Below, piece by piece: positions 3,789 through 30,485 of a stretch of 30,714 nucleotides of DNA. Each line of letters opens with the position of its first letter. Position 1 is the stretch's first letter. The DNA comes from a virus. The stretch covers positions 1-30,714 of IMG/VR virus record IMGVR_UViG_3300012269_000016; one strand, given 5' to 3'. The notes under the pieces are model-generated. The model was not told the DNA's origin, ran no database searches, and saw only the letters and a list, made by a program, of their open reading frames with translations. A program made the position numbers and the translations under genes.

Positions 3789-5660
3789 TCAAGATACGTA
3801 TTCGACATTGAAACTGACAATTTGCTTGACAAGTTGACCTGCATGTGGCTTATTTGTTTCAGAGATATAGAAACAGATGAGCGCTTCTATTGTACTCAAG
3901 AGGATATGCGTTGGAAAAAAGTGCTGCAAGAAGCCGAGCTTGTTGTAGGCCATAACATTATTAATTTTGATTTAAAAGCGCTTAAAAAGATTTATGGCTT
4001 CACTTTGAGCCCAGACACTCGAATTCATGATACTCTTATTATGAGTCAGGTTCAGGACTACAAGCGATTTGGAGAAAAGGGCCACGGCTTAAAAGTTTGG
4101 GGCGAGTACCTGGACTACCCTAAAATAGAGTTTGATGACTACTCTGCTTATACTCCCGAAATGCTCACTTACGGTCAACAAGACGTTGATCTCAACACTG
4201 AAGTTTACAGAGTTCTGTTAACTGAATTTGAGGCGCTTGCTGAGCGTAATGAGAGCATAATACCTTATATGCGAGCTGAACACGCAGTCGGCCAATGGTG
4301 CGCGGACGCAGCAGAGTATGGCTGGCCTTTTGACAAAGAGGGCGCAATTGAGCTTCTCACAACTCTCAAGGCTTTGTTAGACTCCACCACAGAAACACTT
4401 GAAGCAAAACTTGGTATCAAGACTGTGGCGACTGACATGGTCAAAGGTGTCTGTGAAGTCAAAAAGCCTAAATGGAAAAAGGATGGCGATTACAATCATC
4501 ACACATGCGCATGGTTTGGCATTGAGCCCGAGGAGGGACAAGAGGATGGTACAAGAGAGATTAACGGAGAGTACTGCAGAGTTGAGTTTAAAAAACTAAA
4601 GTTAAGCTCTCCTGCAGATGTTAAAGTGTTTCTCTACCGCAACGGCTGGATTCCTGATCAATGGAACACTAAAGTCAATCCCGTGACTTTTGAGAAGACA
4701 AGAACTTCACCGAAAATAACAGACAGCTCCCTTGAGTTTCTTGGGAGTGACGGCAAGCTCTACATAGAGTATCTTACAGTACAGTCCCGCTACGGCATCA
4801 CAAAAACTTGGGTAGAGAACGTTGGTGAAGACGGTTGTCTGAGGGGTGATTGCTTCCCAATAGGCACGCCGAGTATGCGGGCCAGACACAAGATTATTGT
4901 GAACGTACCAAGCGCAGACTCCGACTACGGCCCCGAAATGCGCCGCCTGTTCCGATCCAAGCCGGGCTGGAAACTTGTCGGGTGCGACTCCTCCGGCAAC
5001 CAGGCGCGTGGTCTCGCACACTACCTGAACAACGATGAGTTCACCAGAATCCTGCTGCATGACGATATCCATACTTATAACGCGCAAAAGTTGACAGAAG
5101 TTTTGCGTGAGATGGGAATGGATCACGTTGTAGAGAGAAGCGTTGCAAAGAGGATTTTGTATGCTTTCTTGTTCGGAGCTTCTGGTGGGAAGCTCTGGGG
5201 CTATATCTTTGGACAGCCCAATGAAAAACGTGGCGCAACTCTGAAGAAAGGCTTTACAAAGGCAGTTCCAGGGTTCAAGGATCTCTTAGATAAACTGGAT
5301 CGTGTATTCAATCAAACCAAGAGAGAGAACAAAGGCTATGGTTTTATTCCGTCTATTGCCGGCACTCGCATATATGTTGACTCTAAGCATAAACTGCTTG
5401 TTTACCTGCTGCAGTCACTTGAGAAGATTACTTGCGCGGGTGCATGCCTGCTGCTGACCCAATGGCTAAAGGAAGAAAACATTCCTTACAGCCCTTGTAT
5501 ATTTATGCACGATGAATTACAATTTATAGTCCCTGAAGAGCACGCTGAAAGAGCTGCAGAGCTGGGCGTAAAGGCGTTTCAAGAAGGCCCTAAGCTGTTT
5601 GGAGTTACAATTATGAATGGCGATAGTAAAATAGGAAAAGACTGGTATGACACCCACTAA
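3786..5660 (+). CDS. DNA polymerase, family A (T7 gp5-like) with 3'-5' exonuclease
   Basis: A 624-aa replicative polymerase, slightly shorter than T7 gp5 (704 aa). The exonuclease domain has DIE (D7, E9), GHNIINFD (D62), HDT (D82) and QQDVD (D133). Polymerase motif A is GCDSSGNQARGLAHY (D401). Motif B has R451, K455 and Y459, with Tyr at the position that in T7 is Y526. Motif C is MHDE (H575-E577). All catalytic residues are present, so both proofreading and synthesis should work. The region of roughly 240-340 between the domains is poorly conserved and would hold any thioredoxin-type processivity loop. The stop overlaps the next gene. Confidence 0.96.
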   Translation: MSRYVFDIETDNLLDKLTCMWLICFRDIETDERFYCTQEDMRWKKVLQEAELVVGHNIINFDLKALKKIYGFTLSPDTRIHDTLIMSQVQDYKRFGEKGHGLKVWGEYLDYPKIEFDDYSAYTPEMLTYGQQDVDLNTEVYRVLLTEFEALAERNESIIPYMRAEHAVGQWCADAAEYGWPFDKEGAIELLTTLKALLDSTTETLEAKLGIKTVATDMVKGVCEVKKPKWKKDGDYNHHTCAWFGIEPEEGQEDGTREINGEYCRVEFKKLKLSSPADVKVFLYRNGWIPDQWNTKVNPVTFEKTRTSPKITDSSLEFLGSDGKLYIEYLTVQSRYGITKTWVENVGEDGCLRGDCFPIGTPSMRARHKIIVNVPSADSDYGPEMRRLFRSKPGWKLVGCDSSGNQARGLAHYLNNDEFTRILLHDDIHTYNAQKLTEVLREMGMDHVVERSVAKRILYAFLFGASGGKLWGYIFGQPNEKRGATLKKGFTKAVPGFKDLLDKLDRVFNQTKRENKGYGFIPSIAGTRIYVDSKHKLLVYLLQSLEKITCAGACLLLTQWLKEENIPYSPCIFMHDELQFIVPEEHAERAAELGVKAFQEGPKLFGVTIMNGDSKIGKDWYDTH

Positions 5661-5886
5661 TACAAGGCAAGATCTGTGGCATTCCCTGATGAAAATTAAT
5701 TGCAAACAATCCAAATTTAGCAGGCTATGGGTAAATAGCTGTGTTGATGCAGATAACGACCTCTGCTTAGCACTGGAGGACTACGAGAATTATGTATCTG
5801 TATACCTCAGCCTTGAAGAGATTTCAATATTGCAAAAACATCTTGCTGAGGTCTTGAAAAAGCATGCGAGAGACTCTGTTAGTTAA
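5647..5886 (+). CDS. Hypothetical protein
   Basis: A 79-aa unrecognised protein starting at ATG 5647 inside the end of the polymerase gene, with AGGAAAAG seven bases upstream. The C-terminal half (EEISILQKHLAEVLKKHARD) looks like an amphipathic helix. There are no cysteine pairs or membrane segments. It overlaps the following small gene by 23 nt, which fits the compact packing here. Confidence 0.7.
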   Translation: MTPTNTRQDLWHSLMKINCKQSKFSRLWVNSCVDADNDLCLALEDYENYVSVYLSLEEISILQKHLAEVLKKHARDSVS

Positions 5887-6043
5887 TATAAAAACTGATA
5901 TTGAATGGCAACTTGCCTGTGAGGCTAGCAAGCACGCCGAACTTAATAAGCGGCTGAAGCTTGTTTACGAAGTTTTCGGAGGTGACATCACAATAATTGT
6001 GCAGAGCAATGCGCAGCAAACCACCATAAGGAGAGTCCAATGA
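5864..6043 (+). CDS. Hypothetical small protein
   Basis: A 59-aa frame, ATG 5864 to TGA 6041-6043, filling what would otherwise be a 150-nt gap between 5647-5886 and the zinc-ribbon gene. Its stop overlaps the next ATG (6040) as ATGA, the junction used all through this genome, which supports it being real. It is helical and charged in the middle (ACEASKHAELNKRLKLVYEV), then beta-like (GGDITIIVQS). No family is recognised. GAGG lies about 12 nt before the start. Confidence 0.65.
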   Translation: MRETLLVNIKTDIEWQLACEASKHAELNKRLKLVYEVFGGDITIIVQSNAQQTTIRRVQ

Positions 6044-22680: not shown

Positions 22681-24585
22681 ATGTCTAGATATTCAAGTCT
22701 GTTCACAACAGTTTCTTTGCGTGAAGGCCGTGAGAGCCTGGAGCACAATGTGAAACACAGCATCCAGTATGATCACTTGAGTGAATTTGAACGTATCCAC
22801 TTCAACAGCAGAGAGTTCTGTGCCCTGGTGAACAAAGCCGTGGAGAACGGCTACAGCATTGAGTATGTAATTGAAGAATACAGAGAAGCCGTGGCTGATT
22901 TGCTGAAGATGACTTTCGGCGACATCACAAGAAACAAGCTGACCAGCGCATCGGTCACTCTCAACGGACGTGTGTATCACCTCTCCAACGCTGCTGGGCT
23001 GCAGGATGCCCTGAGTCAGGCCCAGACATTTTTGGCGGAGGTTGGGCCTCTGGTGGCCTCTCGAAAGAGCCGCTCGGTGCCGAAAAACTCGGACAAAGCC
23101 ACTGAAGAGGTGCGCGAGTTTGTTATGAAACCGGCCCTCAACGAGATGTTGATTGCCGCAATGCTTCACAGGCGCTCTCCCAGAATTGTTCATTGGCTAA
23201 ACGAGAATGTACATGAGAAAGTGCATGTATACGGTCCACGCACAACATCCAAAGGGGATTTTATCCCTTACATTCATGAATACAATCTGATGGAACAGCA
23301 CTGCAAAAAACTGAGAAAAGAAAGCACGCATCTGGTGGCAACGGATCTTGTTAAGTACTTCAGCAATATCAAAGTTGAGGAGCTTGTCAAGATATTCTCA
23401 AAAATATTCGGGTCGTCCAAAGAAGCTATCTTCTTGGGAAATTTGCTGAAGTTCACATACATTGATAAAGATGGGGATCCAGCAGACGCTGAAAATGGTC
23501 TCACCATTGAGAGTAATTACCAGCATTACCTCGCCAACATTCTGATGGGGCAAATGCTGACTGAGTTTATCAACACTTCCAAAGAGAAGATGGGCAGGCA
23601 TCCCGATTATGAGATTGTGTCATATATTGATGACATTTATATTTTCTGTAAAGGCAAAGAGACACAGGCTCATGATCTGCTAGATGACTTCAAGATGTTT
23701 ATGAAGGCGACTTACGGGTTTGAGCTGAGTGATGCCAAGACCAGCGTTAAAAGCACGATGCAAGATTTGGCTCTGAAAGGTCTGGTGAGACTGCCCACTA
23801 TAAATTATTTTGACATACTCCCGGAGGTGAATAAAGACTTTACAGAAGAGCTTTCTGAAGAGCTGTTGCATTCTTATCAGCAAATCATTTCCAGGCTGGG
23901 CATGAGCAGCTTCAAAGTCGCAATAGCCTCAATGACGGATGCTCAAGTCAACTTGGTGTACAGTCTCGTACTGTATAGCTATCAGAGCGGACTTGAGTGC
24001 TTTAAAGCAAATGGCAGAGAGATTATACTGACACGCGTCCAGTGCATTCTTAAAAAACCTGTGATGATTGCTATTGCCAAGATGGCGATGCGTTCTGGAA
24101 AAAGCATAACTGAAATGATGGATGTTGATCATGTAAAAGGTCACAACAATTTCAGTCCTACACACGTTAGGACTTCTGCGTATGATTATAATTTGTCAAA
24201 AACGTACGAGGAGGCAATTCGGGACAATGCTTATCTGATCAAGACAGATATGGACGCCAATGACATTGAATTTTATATCCTGCGCTACAAGCAGTTCGAG
24301 TTCAGCTTTGACTGGTTTCGTCCAGGGCTACAGCGACCGATTCTGAGCACTCTGCAATACCTTTACTTAGTTCGCACCAAAAACTCGGGAGAGGCGCAAG
24401 TGGTAGTGGATAGCGCGCTGCGATTGCTGTCAGACAATCCCAATAAGTCGCGTTTTATTGCCGGTATTATTAAGAGGCAGTATCGCAGGGGACAATTACC
24501 TATGTTCAATTTTGAAGTGAAGCTGCCTCCTGTACTTCCGGGGGAAAGGTATGAACTGTTTAACTACAGCATGAGTCGCTTATGA
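22681..24585 (+). CDS. Reverse transcriptase-like protein (Abi/UG-type candidate)
   Basis: A 634-aa protein with the catalytic motifs of reverse transcriptases in order: motif A VATDLVKYFSNI (D222), motif B GLTIESNYQHYLANILM (273-289), motif C VSYIDDIYIF with YIDD at 315-318, and motif D FELSDAKT (347-354). The catalytic acids D222, D317 and D318 are present. The usual PQG and S of motif B are replaced (TIE, QH). About 215 N-terminal and 280 C-terminal residues flank the RT core. The C-terminal part is largely helical, as in AbiA/AbiK-type abortive infection RTs. No maturase or HNH, no retron RNA and no DGR repeats were seen. Codons of the first third are more GC-rich than its neighbours. Class not certain. 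Confidence 0.8.
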   Translation: MSRYSSLFTTVSLREGRESLEHNVKHSIQYDHLSEFERIHFNSREFCALVNKAVENGYSIEYVIEEYREAVADLLKMTFGDITRNKLTSASVTLNGRVYHLSNAAGLQDALSQAQTFLAEVGPLVASRKSRSVPKNSDKATEEVREFVMKPALNEMLIAAMLHRRSPRIVHWLNENVHEKVHVYGPRTTSKGDFIPYIHEYNLMEQHCKKLRKESTHLVATDLVKYFSNIKVEELVKIFSKIFGSSKEAIFLGNLLKFTYIDKDGDPADAENGLTIESNYQHYLANILMGQMLTEFINTSKEKMGRHPDYEIVSYIDDIYIFCKGKETQAHDLLDDFKMFMKATYGFELSDAKTSVKSTMQDLALKGLVRLPTINYFDILPEVNKDFTEELSEELLHSYQQIISRLGMSSFKVAIASMTDAQVNLVYSLVLYSYQSGLECFKANGREIILTRVQCILKKPVMIAIAKMAMRSGKSITEMMDVDHVKGHNNFSPTHVRTSAYDYNLSKTYEEAIRDNAYLIKTDMDANDIEFYILRYKQFEFSFDWFRPGLQRPILSTLQYLYLVRTKNSGEAQVVVDSALRLLSDNPNKSRFIAGIIKRQYRRGQLPMFNFEVKLPPVLPGERYELFNYSMSRL

Positions 24586-27104: not shown

Positions 27105-27415
27105 ACATAAGACTGACTGAAAAGCAACACAAGCTATTCAAACGTGCCGCAGAAGTTGAAGGGGTCTCTCTGAGCAGCTTTGTCAGGAAGTCACTGGTGG
27201 ATGCCGCCCGAGCCACTATAAGAGAGCATCACATAATTTCTGTCACATTAGAACAAGGAGACAAAATGATGGCTATCTTGGAGGCCACTCATAAGTGTAA
27301 CGGTCTCTACTATAAAGAGGAGGACGGAGAGGCGTATGTACTCGGCTTGAGCGGTGTATGGCTGAGGTCTAAAGGTGGCCCATTGGCACTACGGCATAAT
27401 ATGGCAGAACTGTAA
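27101..27415 (+). CDS. DUF1778 (TacA-like) antitoxin domain protein, orphan
   Basis: A 104-aa protein. Residues 1-60 have the ribbon-helix-helix pattern of DUF1778 antitoxins: RLTEKQHKLFKRAAEVEGVS, then LSSFVRKSLVDAARATI and EHHIISVTLEQGDKM. In TA pairs such antitoxins bind a GNAT acetyltransferase toxin (TacT) that acetylates tRNA. No toxin gene is nearby: the neighbours do not show a GNAT fold. Residues 61-104 (GLYYKEEDGEAYVLGLSGVW) are not a usual antitoxin tail. It may neutralise host toxins or repress genes. A strong terminator follows. Confidence 0.8.
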   Translation: MNIRLTEKQHKLFKRAAEVEGVSLSSFVRKSLVDAARATIREHHIISVTLEQGDKMMAILEATHKCNGLYYKEEDGEAYVLGLSGVWLRSKGGPLALRHNMAEL

Positions 27416-27423
27416 AACCCCAC

Positions 27424-27477
27424 TTACCCACTGCATCCTTCGGGGTGTGGTGGGTAACCCTTTATTTTTTTTTTTTT
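27424..27477 (+). terminator. Strong Rho-independent terminator
   Basis: A 15-pair stem: TTACCCACTGCATCC (27424-27438) with GGGTGTGGTGGGTAA (27443-27457), loop TTCG, followed by CCC and a T-tract to 27477, interrupted by one A. It ends the accessory run before the late genes. Confidence 0.93.
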
Positions 27478-27507
27478 CGTTTTATCTCACGGGTCTGTTA
27501 ATGCCAA

Positions 27508-27520
27508 CCCGTTAAATTAA
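27508..27520 (+). promoter_or_regulatory. Putative phage RNA polymerase promoter, copy 3
   Basis: CCCGTTAAATTAA, followed by AGGAAGAGG, the same 13-base core as at 2472 and 18286 (one position varies). It stands 31 nt after the T-tract of a strong terminator and 330 nt before the terminase genes, so it is placed where a late promoter is needed. Confidence 0.55.
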
Positions 27521-27851
27521 AGGAAGAGGTACTCCTCTGACGACAAGGAAGGACTTATGTCCCCTTAAGTGTTATCCCGGTCATATTTGAGGTGATTGAC
27601 GTTTGTCACCTACCGTTTAATATAGTTTAAGTAGCGTTTTAGCTACGTTCAATAACTGTAGGGAGATCCTACATGTACCCTTAAGGGGTAATCTTGCTTA
27701 TTTATTAGTCCTGAGAAATAATGACAATATCTGAGATGTCTTTAACAAGGTATTTTGAAAGATTTCTTGGAACAGCACTCTTTCAAAGTATCTTAAACAG
27801 CCCATCTGAGCAGAACAACGCTTGGGTGGGCTTAAAACTTAATGGTGAACT
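27521..27851 (+). other. Structured non-coding leader before the terminase genes
   Basis: About 330 nt without a gene of notable length but with a series of possible hairpins: AGAGG/CCTCT (27524-27537), AAGG-GGAC/GTCC-CCTT (27545-27566), AGGTGA/TCACCT (27590-27611), GTAGC/GCTAC (27631-27646), GTAGG/CCTAC (27658-27672), a 16-pair stem with two wobbles (27747-27762 with 27779-27794) and a 12-pair stem (27800-27811 with 27820-27831). Two three-codon frames, ATG TCC CCT TAA (27558) and ATG TAC CCT TAA (27673), each follow a Shine-Dalgarno-like sequence. It may be a late-mRNA leader, a packaging signal or an untranslated RNA. Confidence 0.6.
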
Positions 27852-28247
27852 ATGACAGATATAATGCCTCCAGGCTATGTAAAGCCTCTGCAGCGGACGA
27901 GGAGCAAGATAGCTAAAAGAGCTACGGATAAGATGAACAGCAGAGGTTATGATCCAATTGATGGACAATTAGATTTATATGATAGACTGATTGATGAAGA
28001 CAGAGTTATGTGCGCGATACGTGACGGGAGTCTTGTGAAGATCACTCCTTCAGGTCCGACTCAAAGATATTCCTCTATGGCTCACGCGGCAATCCTGGCT
28101 CAGATCAACAAGTTGCATGGTGACTTACTGCGATTCGGTTATGCTCGTGTGTCTGAAACAGTGATCGAACAGAAAGCTGTGAGGAGTCCTCTTGTGATAG
28201 AACTTGAGGGAGATGACGTGAGGGTCATTAACGATGAGCAGGATTAA
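27852..28247 (+). CDS. Probable small terminase subunit
   Basis: A 131-aa protein directly upstream of the large terminase and overlapping it by 14 nt, the usual place and size for TerS, which recognises DNA to be packaged. It begins with a basic region (GYVKPLQRTRSKIAKRAT) and has a central helix (SSMAHAAILAQINKLHGDLL). There is no clear sequence signature, so the call rests on position and size. GGTGAAC is just before ATG 27852. Confidence 0.6.
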   Translation: MTDIMPPGYVKPLQRTRSKIAKRATDKMNSRGYDPIDGQLDLYDRLIDEDRVMCAIRDGSLVKITPSGPTQRYSSMAHAAILAQINKLHGDLLRFGYARVSETVIEQKAVRSPLVIELEGDDVRVINDEQD

Positions 28248-28608
28248 GCTTCATAAAGGACAGACACAGATCTTCAGGGCTCTCTTTGTGGAGATGACTA
28301 AGAAATTTGTGACTGCATGTTGCTCTCGGGGTTTCGGCAAGAGCTATAAGGCTGCTGTTGCCGCAACGACTGCCGTGTTTGAATTGATGGAGATGGATGA
28401 AGAAATTCCCAATAAGACCGTCTACATCATCGCACCTACACTTGATCAAGCTAAAGAGATCTATTTCCCGTTACTTGTGCATGAGTTTCACCTTGATGAT
28501 TACTGCATAAAGCCGCCAAGCGCTGACACAGGTAAGTTTGACTTCGGTAAAGGTGTGACATTACGATTGGTGTCCTTTGAAGCCATAGAAAGACTGCGTG
28601 GCAAGGGT
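28234..28608 (+). CDS. Large terminase subunit, exon 1
   Basis: The first 125 residues of the packaging ATPase-nuclease. Walker A is CCSRGFGKSYKAA (SRGFGKS at 31-37). TVYIIAPTLDQAKEIY is the typical next strand-helix, and RLVSFEAIERLRGKG ends just before Walker B. Read through without splicing, the frame stops at 28636-28638 in intron sequence. The exon end CAAGGGU pairs with a guide sequence GCCCUUG at 28619-28625, fixing the splice site after U28608. Confidence 0.93.
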
Positions 28609-29552
28609 AAAAATACCTGCCCTTGTAAAATTCCGTGAATTCGGTGGAACTCCCTAAGGGACAATACCGAGCCAAGCTTATCCAGGAATGGATTTGAAGG
28701 TGTAACGACTAGGACATACGATCCAGAACGGATTATGAAGTCCATAGGGCTAAGCGGCCCGAAGCGCGGAAGCATCACTTGTGATGTATGATATAGTCTG
28801 ATCTGCACGGCAACGTGTAGTAGTGCTCGCCAAGCACATGTGAGAAATTTTATGGAATGGAAAGAATACTCAAACTATTTTGTGAGCAATACTGGTAAGA
28901 TTTTTAGCAATCATATCAATGCTGAACTTCAAATAAACACCGGTAGATATAAGATGGCTGATTTGCGTTTAAAAACAGGGCCACTTAAGATAGGTGTCCA
29001 CAGACTTGTAGCTACTCTGTTTTTAGAAAATCCTCATGATCACCCTTGCGTAAACCATAAAGACGGTGACAAGCATAATAATCATGTTGATAATCTAGAG
29101 TGGTGTACTTATTCTGAAAACACAATTCATTCTTATGCCACAGGTTTGCAGACCATAGGTTCAGAAAAAACATTAGCATTGCTTAACGAAGAGGATGTAG
29201 TAGTAATACATCAGCGAATGCTAAATGGTGAGAAGGATCACATTCTCGCACGAGACTACAATGTCACTTCGGGTGTTATTTCGTCGATAAGACTTAATAA
29301 GACTTGGAAACATGTGACAAGAGAGGCTCTGCCACGCTCTGGAGCTAACCCTAAAAAGAAGCTTTCAGGAGAGGACATTCCGATAATCCGTGGAATGATT
29401 GCAGAAGATACGAGTGATGCTGCTATTGCAAGAGTATTCGGTGTAGCACGCGCTACAATAAATCAAATACGTCAGGGCAAGACTTGGCGTAATTATTAAT
29501 TAACTTGGCGAGACACAGGCAGAGTATTAGCGGACTCTGTTGAACATTAATG
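28609..29552 (+). ncRNA. Group I intron (td-like, IA2) in the large terminase gene
   Basis: A self-splicing intron of 944 nt. P1: CAAGGGU (28602-28608) with GCCCUUG (28619-28625), U-G at the splice site. P7: GACUA (28707-28711) with UAGUC (28794-28798). P9: CUGCACG/CGUGUAG (28803-28820) with a GCAA loop. The segments GTGAATTCGGTG and ACAATACCGAGCC near the 5' end, and TGTAACGACTA, are almost the same as in the RNA polymerase intron. The last base is G29552 in GAACATTAATG, the same ending as T4 td. P10 is less clear than in the first intron (AUAC 28613-28616 with GUAU 29555-29558). Confidence 0.92.
28852..29499 (+). CDS. Intron-encoded HNH homing endonuclease with two HTH units
   Basis: A 215-aa nuclease in the terminase intron. 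NUMOD4-like start (MEWKEYSNYFVSNTGKIFSN), HNH_3 core (VNHKDGDKHNNHVDNLEW, about 67-84, His69), then two tandem C-terminal units, 111-155 and 171-215. Each ends in a similar motif (IRLNKTWKHV, IRQGKTWRNY). The related protein at 474-959 has only one unit. ATG 28852 matches the start of that relative; an in-frame GTG at 28840 would add 4 residues. It probably directs spread of the intron into unoccupied terminase genes. Confidence 0.92.
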   Translation: MEWKEYSNYFVSNTGKIFSNHINAELQINTGRYKMADLRLKTGPLKIGVHRLVATLFLENPHDHPCVNHKDGDKHNNHVDNLEWCTYSENTIHSYATGLQTIGSEKTLALLNEEDVVVIHQRMLNGEKDHILARDYNVTSGVISSIRLNKTWKHVTREALPRSGANPKKKLSGEDIPIIRGMIAEDTSDAAIARVFGVARATINQIRQGKTWRNY

Positions 29553-30485
29553 GCGTATTTCGTTGTGTGTGATGAGGTTAGCTCATGGAGCAAGAAGCCA
29601 GGCTTTAAGGCTGCATGGGAAGGCATTATACAACCTATGATAGTGACACGTTGGCCTGTCCTCGGGAGAGCCCTGATCATAAGCACTCCGAAAGGTTACA
29701 ACTACTTTCATGATCTGTGTATGCTGTCCAGAGAGGATCCCGATTGGGGTTTCTTTCATTTCACCTATCGTGACTCTCCCTTCTTATCTATAAAAGAAAT
29801 TGAGAAAATCAAGAGCAGAATTGACCCTATTGAATTTGCCACAGAGTATGAGGCTGATTTCAAAGACTCAGGCAACTCTGTGTTCTACATGTTTGATCGT
29901 AACATACAAGTCCGCAAGATGGACTGGTTCGAGGAGAAAGAAGATGTCTACATCGCAATCGATTTCAACGTTAGCAGGCAGTGCACATCCATATGGCGTA
30001 AGATGGGAAACGAATTGTGGGCCGTTGACGAAATGCAAGGGCATCCCGATACAGAGACTCTCGCTATTGCCTTGGAAGAAAGATTTGTCAGCAAAGGACA
30101 TGAAGTCTATGCCTTTCCCGACCCTTCCGGAAATTCCAGATCAACGAAAGCACCTGTCGGCACAACTGATTTCACCATCCTCAAGAAGCATGGGATACGA
30201 GTACTGGCTCACAAAGCCGCTCCCGGAATCGTTGACTCAGTTGCAGCCGTAAATGCTAAATTGATGACAGCGAAAGGTGTGACAACTCTTTGGTTTCATC
30301 CCCGATGCAAAGGTCTCATTAAGTCAATGGAGCGGACTGTTTGGATTGACAACAACAGTGACACGGCAAGTATAGATAAATCAGGCAATGATGAGCATTA
30401 CTCAGATGGTGTTCGATATATATGCGAATACTTATGGCCCATTAAGAGAAGTGGTGGCAGATCGTCGCGAGGATTCGGATTCTGA
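29553..30485 (+). CDS. Large terminase subunit, exon 2
   Basis: The last 310 residues; the joined protein has 435. Walker B opens the exon, AYFVVCDEVSS (D132, E133 in the joined protein). ALIISTPKGYN is the coupling motif. The RNase H-like nuclease has AIDFNVS (D262), FPDPSGN (D315) and EHYSDGVRY (D410). It pumps DNA into proheads and cuts it. The length and motifs fit the Terminase_3/6-type rather than the longer T7 gp19. The ATG at 29550 is made of the last intron bases and is probably not used as a start. The stop overlaps the next gene by TGATG. Confidence 0.94.
   Translation, partial: AYFVVCDEVSSWSKKPGFKAAWEGIIQPMIVTRWPVLGRALIISTPKGYNYFHDLCMLSREDPDWGFFHFTYRDSPFLSIKEIEKIKSRIDPIEFATEYEADFKDSGNSVFYMFDRNIQVRKMDWFEEKEDVYIAIDFNVSRQCTSIWRKMGNELWAVDEMQGHPDTETLAIALEERFVSKGHEVYAFPDPSGNSRSTKAPVGTTDFTILKKHGIRVLAHKAAPGIVDSVAAVNAKLMTAKGVTTLWFHPRCKGLIKSMERTVWIDNNSDTASIDKSGNDEHYSDGVRYICEYLWPIKRSGGRSSRGFGF

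Follow-up and report, generated by a model that had tools for sequence, protein, structure and literature searches.

What is the role of a strongly folded, apparently gene-free stretch of DNA directly upstream of the terminase genes of a virus? The stretch lies in IMG/VR virus record IMGVR_UViG_3300012269_000016, whose 30,714 bases were analyzed in full and are referred to here as the window. An original prediction had marked out 330 nt without a gene at this place and suggested, among other uses, a late-mRNA leader, a packaging signal or a stable RNA. When ORFs of at least 50 aa are considered, the full gap extends over 436 nt (27416-27851), from the end of one ORF at 27415 to the start of a terS-like ORF at 27852, and it opens with a terminator. 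It contains, in order, an intrinsic terminator, a repeated motif and a leader, folded and about 330 nt long, that continues up to terS. The best-supported reading of the region is a boundary between middle and late genes, and we consider it fairly probable that the gap constitutes a late-gene switch in which a terminator, a promoter for the phage polymerase and a leader formed as a chain of hairpins precede the packaging operon terS-terL.

Genes flanking the gap and relatives of the window

The terS-like gene (27852-28247, + strand) is assigned to the small terminase subunit by its position; it has its own ribosome site (GGTGA) and recurs upstream of terL in relatives. The terL gene follows on the same strand in two parts. 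Exon 1 (28234-28563, 3' end approximate) belongs to phrog_2, and exon 2 spans 29550-30485 (5' end approximate); between them lie a group I intron core (28564-28820, + strand; Rfam RF00028, 58 bits) and the HNH endonuclease ORF of that intron (28840-29499, + strand; phrog_59). Exon 2 is nearest to EBPR siphovirus 1 (57%) and then to roseophages of the Naomviridae (about 50%). The window also encodes a fragment of a T7-type RNA polymerase at 1011-2084 (PF00940, E 4.7e-42), nearest to roseophage polymerases (37%). A second group I intron at 158-443, which with its HNH ORF occupies 158-959, lies just upstream of this fragment, and the middle region encodes a reverse-transcriptase-like protein of 634 residues at 22681-24585 (PF00078, E 4.9e-11).

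Relatives were collected with a profile built from three terL sequences, which retrieved 80 terL relatives from IMG/VR, at 57% identity at best. A terS profile made from eight sequences, the window's included, found matches upstream of terL in many of them. Searches of IMG/VR by terL or terS protein alone yielded no close homologue of the window leader, and among the 20 of 90 matches listed from a blastn search of the region against phage records, all fell within query positions 1201-1772, in the intron and HNH ORF. One relative that recurs below, L246, is contig QNFP01000100, which was binned with a Gammaproteobacteria MAG and whose terL is 56% identical to that of the window. Counts of signals upstream of terS refer to 45 loci with a terS match and enough upstream sequence, a set that includes the window and was not de-duplicated.

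A terminator and a candidate phage promoter open the gap

The upstream gene cluster is closed by an intrinsic terminator hairpin on the + strand at 27424-27457, with 15 pairs (7 of them G-C) and a UUCG loop. Only CCCTTTA separates its stem from a run of 13 T (27465-27477, + strand), giving the G+C-containing stem with a T run close behind that defines an intrinsic terminator. Relatives carry 9-29 T in a run at the equivalent place, and a poly-T tract of at least 8 within 1.5 kb upstream of terS is found in 31 of the 45 loci.

Past the terminator lies a candidate phage-RNA-polymerase promoter, AACCCGTTAAATTAA (27506-27520, + strand), one copy of a repeated motif and here followed by AGG instead of CCC. 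The consensus of the window-type motif is A[ACG]CCCGTTA[AC]TTAACCC, and its copies in the window, at 2472 (one mismatch), 18286 and 27508, are all on the + strand with a gene behind each, the next ORF beginning after 41, 68 and 331 nt, respectively. The copy at 27508 departs from the consensus in its last three bases, reading AAAGG where the consensus has AACCC, and a few other copies do likewise. In related contigs of 65-79 kb the motif occurs 4-7 times per contig in all six that were searched, always on one strand, for a total of 32 sites; the reversed control pattern had no match in the same six contigs. An invariant A two bases upstream of the motif, outside the searched pattern, accompanies it in the 35 listed sites. 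Upstream of terS, the window-type motif was present in 21 of the 45 loci and a second motif, TACCTGACGTTTAAGAATA, in 6. In the window and in the six related contigs the motif is thus repeated, on the coding strand and before genes, as expected for a set of promoters, and from this pattern we infer that the T7-type RNA polymerase of the phage itself uses it as a promoter. A search for host sigma-70 promoters gave none beyond chance (8 found, 8.8 expected), and among the papers listed by literature searches none dealt with the motif or with the leaders described here.

Several further features accompany the motifs. A few bases past some copies, and absent past others, is a second conserved box resembling CGTCCCCCCT, followed by an A+T-rich stretch (L094-L097, L100, L101, L104, L106 and L112). 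L246 has the motif at 2920, before terS, and its reverse complement GGGTTAATTTAACGGGG at about 3183, inside the leader, possibly an antisense promoter or one side of a long-range stem. The second motif, which was searched for in at least 120 contigs, is often doubled (L121, L127, L132, L135, L140 and L145), with the copies about 80-100 nt apart, a hairpin between them, and another gene behind.

Folding of the window leader

The original prediction that this stretch is strongly folded was borne out. The folding energy of 27478-27851 on the + strand is -113.4 kcal/mol, compared with a mean of -86.4 +/- 5.0 in dinucleotide shuffles (z -5.4), and none of 100 shuffles was as low; the - strand gives z -2.9. 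When pairs are limited to a span of 60 nt, 27521-27851 also folds beyond chance, with z -4.8 on the + strand and -4.4 on the - strand, and removal of the two long hairpins leaves a z of -3.1 under the same limit, with 1 of 100 shuffles as low. Because the - strand is likewise folded beyond chance, strand bias does not demonstrate selection at the level of RNA. When 382 segments of 200 nt spread along the record are ranked by folding, 27681-27880 comes second (z -4.2). The segment that ranks first, 5041-5240 (z -5.7), is inside the DNA polymerase ORF. The whole window contains 11 stems of at least 12 pairs, the six longest having at least 13, and three of these six, the terminator counted, are within 27424-27832; six shuffles of the whole window produced 2-5 stems of at least 12 pairs and 0-3 of at least 13.

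Local folding resolves the leader into ten stem-loops, six of them confident (mean pair probability at least 0.89) and four uncertain (0.10-0.47), where at least seven hairpins had been proposed. All are read on the + strand. Downstream of the hairpin that adjoins the motif, described below, a stem-loop of 8 pairs at 27545-27566 (pair probability 0.23 without the span limit) and a branched stem of 17 pairs at 27569-27623, which contains GGTGA-TTGACGTTTG-TCACC (0.47), are followed by three short stem-loops at 27631-27646 (5 pairs, 1.00), 27657-27673 (6 pairs, 0.97) and 27676-27690 (6 pairs, 0.89), and then by one of 12 pairs at 27697-27735 (0.26). An 18-nt repeat links 27673-27690 with 27557-27574 (83% alike). 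The first long hairpin, at 27747-27794, has 16 contiguous and 2 inner pairs and is placed exactly where it had been claimed; the second was also correctly located, with slightly different limits, comprising 13 pairs at 27799-27832 and ending 19 nt before the terS ATG rather than 12 pairs and 20 nt. Both long hairpins have mean pair probabilities of at least 0.89.

A covarying hairpin beside the candidate promoter

Directly after the candidate promoter, local folding and covariation both identify a short hairpin, P1 (AGAGG-UACU-CCUCU, 27525-27538, + strand); the confident stem-loop predicted at this place spans 27522-27541 (mean pair probability at least 0.89). Leaders found through the AAAGG form of the motif share the arrangement GGA-hairpin-GACG with the window, and in these window-type leaders all five pairs of P1 are kept, three of them through compensatory changes. 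The alignment, anchored on the flanks, has nine rows that represent four distinct sequences, and its covariation score was reached by 1 of 500 shuffles. It leaves out L116 and L119, which appear to be chance matches in coding sequence, as well as L239, and also L238, which is near-identical to L237 and L240. At the position of P1, L246 has GAAGAG/CUCUUC, a hairpin of 6 pairs that was not entered into the covariation because it is shifted by one base. Eight of the nine rows precede a gene other than terS; judged by its sequence, this gene would encode an acidic, scaffold-like protein, for which Pfam had no match over the stretch tested. Since the next gene in leaders of the AAAGG form is not terS, P1 goes with the promoter and not with terS. 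Among the sequences compared, P1 is the sole element of the window leader with comparative support; neither the two long hairpins nor the leader as a whole has a homologue among them.

A hairpin at this position is not a general rule. Hairpins occur beside the promoter at 24 of 52 de-duplicated sites, where 11.8 are expected from shuffles and 20.7 from offset windows further along the leaders. The proposition of a hairpin at the start of each such transcript was ruled out, as the offset windows are nearly as rich; the leaders are therefore rich in hairpins throughout, and their 5' end is nothing special in this respect. The pattern promoter-gap-TGACG has four more matches, all rejected: three of them represent a single sequence whose leader is different and G+C-rich, and the fourth is an apparent chance match in coding sequence.

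Leader folding across relatives

Strong folding before terS recurs but is not universal. Of 39 loci, 15 have a z of -3 or lower in the 370 nt before terS, compared with 2 of the 39 coding controls (Fisher p 6e-4, Wilcoxon p 1.4e-4); 19 hand-picked near-duplicates and 6 loci that were too short or contained N had been left out of this set. Leader z values among relatives range from +1.1 to -8.4, with many near zero, and in a subset of 26 loci (the window and loci numbered up to L043) only 7 are at or below -3. L246 has the full order of 11 T, the motif with AAAG, a hairpin, a 364-nt leader and terS, and this leader shows no unusual folding (z -0.6). Given this wide spread, the 7 of 26 in the subset and the unfolded leader of L246, a conserved fold of the whole leader is unsupported. 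The original prediction held that absence of the stems from close relatives would count against a function, and this was found in part, since L246 and many of the 39 loci lack the strongest folding. The compensatory changes that it named as support are present in one short hairpin, P1, and strongly so in another RNA that occupies this position in marine relatives.

A pseudoknotted leader RNA in marine relatives

This marine RNA was found by following the most strongly folded relatives (L056-L081). It sits after the second motif and upstream of terS, and its fold consists of an outer two-part stem around two hairpins whose loops pair with each other to form a pseudoknot. Examples are at L056:7817-7967, L059:8085-8287, L060:610-773, L068:3005-3166, L079:384-531 and L081:2057-2222, among others. 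The alignment was reduced from 35 sequences to 26 that are not near-identical and then to 24, the cut-off L166 and L169 being dropped and some ends trimmed. In these 24 sequences, 98.3% of 881 cells pair and 20 of 37 pairs show compensatory changes, against a shuffle mean of 11.8. The covariation score is 0.358, compared with 0.149 for shuffles and at most 0.084 when partners are slid by 1-3 columns. Within the pseudoknot helix 5 of 6 pairs have changed on both sides; the alignment came from a filter that demanded complementary pseudoknot strands, and the pairing of all sequences in this helix is therefore partly by construction. L055, which the covariance model reached without the filter, adds a further matching pseudoknot variant, TGCATC/GATGCA.

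The covariance model matches 33 loci in a set of 100 and 25 in a set of 88, counts that include some loci of the same contig and exclude fainter reverse-strand echoes. The RNA is carried by ten of the terL loci, and its distance upstream of terS in these is about 0.1-1.2 kb. Five loci with the RNA were scanned against Rfam in relaxed mode, and no family matched it. This clearly evolved and apparently undescribed folded RNA is more novel than the window leader. Membership of the window in this class was ruled out with the same model (R1), for which the best score in the window, with filters off, is 3.5 bits (E 0.99).

Proposed role of the gap and alternative explanations

In T7-type late units, a single-subunit phage RNA polymerase transcribes from a short, specific promoter, and the late mRNA of T7 carries a 5' stem-loop, as before gene 10. 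By the same logic, the terminator of the window would end the middle genes, and the phage's T7-type polymerase would start the late transcript just after it, probably within or just after AAATTAAAGG. The late mRNA would then begin with P1 and continue into the chain of further hairpins. Less certain are the steps that follow: the hairpins might shield the 5' end of a long late mRNA from 5'-dependent decay and might hold the approach to terS in local structure, preventing long-range misfolding, with terS then translated from its own GGTGA site. The leader probably functions in mRNA stability, a role assigned to the hairpin chain by analogy with T7 late mRNA. The late-mRNA leader in the original prediction gains support from the promoter-like motif directly upstream and from the terminator with its T run before that motif.

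Other explanations concern parts of the gap or its folding as a whole. The gap holds no ORF of at least 50 aa, and its gene-free status is nevertheless uncertain because an ORF of 44 codons (27721-27855, + strand), whose stop overlaps the terS start by 4 nt, contains both long hairpins. For the same reason the original statement that the gap must have a use goes too far, since the gap may hold this small gene. The 3' half of the leader could be a translated gene that the ATGA overlap couples to terS, a reading we regard as possible but lean against; we lean against, to the same degree, its corollary that the long hairpins are incidental or tune the translation of the small gene and that the non-coding leader ends at 27720. 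An open frame as long as this at that stop appears in only 1.3% of shuffles, and an exact 4-nt overlap is found in 12 of 33 neighbouring ORF pairs of the window (in a hand-made ORF list). Against this, the codon score is intermediate (2.3% of in-frame segments are as low and 2.5% of off-frame segments as high), and 35% of shuffled ORFs match or exceed it; the ORF has no homologue among the loci compared and no Pfam family, and it is preceded by a weak ribosome site (GAG) only, while terS has its own. That the folding is incidental, the product of a relaxed A+T-rich spacer in which many hairpins arise by chance, fits the unconserved sequence of the leader, the spread of z among relatives and the unfolded leader of L246. 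We nevertheless judge it unlikely in view of the depth of the folding (0 of 100 shuffles as low), its rank of 2 among 382, the covariation of P1 and the comparison of 39 loci, in which folding exceeds that of the controls.

Two further proposals seem more improbable still. Sites for cos or pac cleavage often adjoin terS, and the gap could be such packaging DNA for TerS, its repeats and hairpins acting as sites of recognition or cleavage; the folding of the - strand would agree with this, and so would the ends of the large related contigs L021 and L024, which lie upstream of terS at a distance of about 600 nt. Those ends may be assembly breaks, however, and other large contigs end elsewhere; the stems include G-U pairs, which are unpaired in DNA, and the commonest words shared by 21 leaders, the promoter motif aside, are T runs and short A+T-rich words. 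We give equally little credence to a stable trans-acting or cis-regulatory RNA released from the leader, such as a small RNA, a switch or an RNase-processed fragment. The pseudoknotted RNA of marine relatives, which covaries and lies upstream of terS, would offer a parallel, and the 18-nt repeat of the window leader could pair with itself at a distance, but the window gives no match to the model of the marine RNA. At the gathering threshold, moreover, Rfam recognizes only group I introns in the window, elsewhere than in the leader, and a relaxed scan of 27380-27900 gives U2 and snoZ118 below threshold, at chance level. Returning to the late-gene switch, a wider form of it is speculative and on balance rather unlikely: many terL-related phages with T7-type polymerases may open their packaging operon with dedicated leader RNAs, fast-evolving in sequence with folded 5' modules kept, a range with the window's chain of hairpins at one end and the marine pseudoknot at the other, and with effects on the late mRNA or on the packaging of DNA itself.

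Comparison with known systems

DSS3_VP1 is a phage with deoxyuridine DNA (PMC12697855), and the passages on it in that paper contain no text on promoters or terminase; the phage and pseudoknot passages of PMC2864571 likewise contain none on terminase. DSS3_VP1 and DSS3_PM1 (Naomviridae, Noahvirus) have terL about 50% identical to that of the window and the closest RNA polymerases. Upstream, DSS3_PM1 also shows a strong 22-T terminator together with a folded gap (z -4.4), but this gap is displaced upstream by one gene, its terS homologue is directly preceded by 289 nt that are unfolded (z -0.1), and the window-type motif is absent from the stretch examined. Its region 5566-5956 (L003), with a very long terminator stem, the 22 T and repeated words of the CTAATAGGG type, is possibly the roseophage version of the switch. 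EBPR siphovirus 1 (JF412302; terL identity 57%) and L246 (56%) have a long-T terminator, a variant of the motif, a leader and terS-terL in the same order as in the window. The gap of EBPR siphovirus 1 differs in measuring 284 nt and contains N, which prevents folding, and the leader of L246 differs in not being unusually folded.

The marine pseudoknotted RNA occupies the same place as the window leader, between a promoter-like motif (TACCTGACGTTTAAGAATA) and terS, but has a defined fold, a conserved sequence and a pseudoknot, to which the window has no match. Its strong pseudoknot covariation, together with its place upstream of the packaging genes, makes a role for RNA in late expression or packaging directly testable. 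For the window itself a close model is the T7-type late unit. The window has a gene for a T7-type polymerase, and its motif is short, strand-specific and repeated before gene clusters, with a hairpin directly after it at 27525. It differs in the motif, A[ACG]CCCGTTA[AC]TTAACCC, which is a candidate promoter, and in a leader that extends over about 330 nt, contains ten stem-loops (six confident, four uncertain) and has terS-terL first behind it. The region is best read as a probable phage late promoter with a structured leader, a known arrangement in a poorly described phage group. For this group, known mostly from metagenomes, it provides a concrete candidate promoter and terminator, which makes it possible to predict late transcripts in the genomes of the group.
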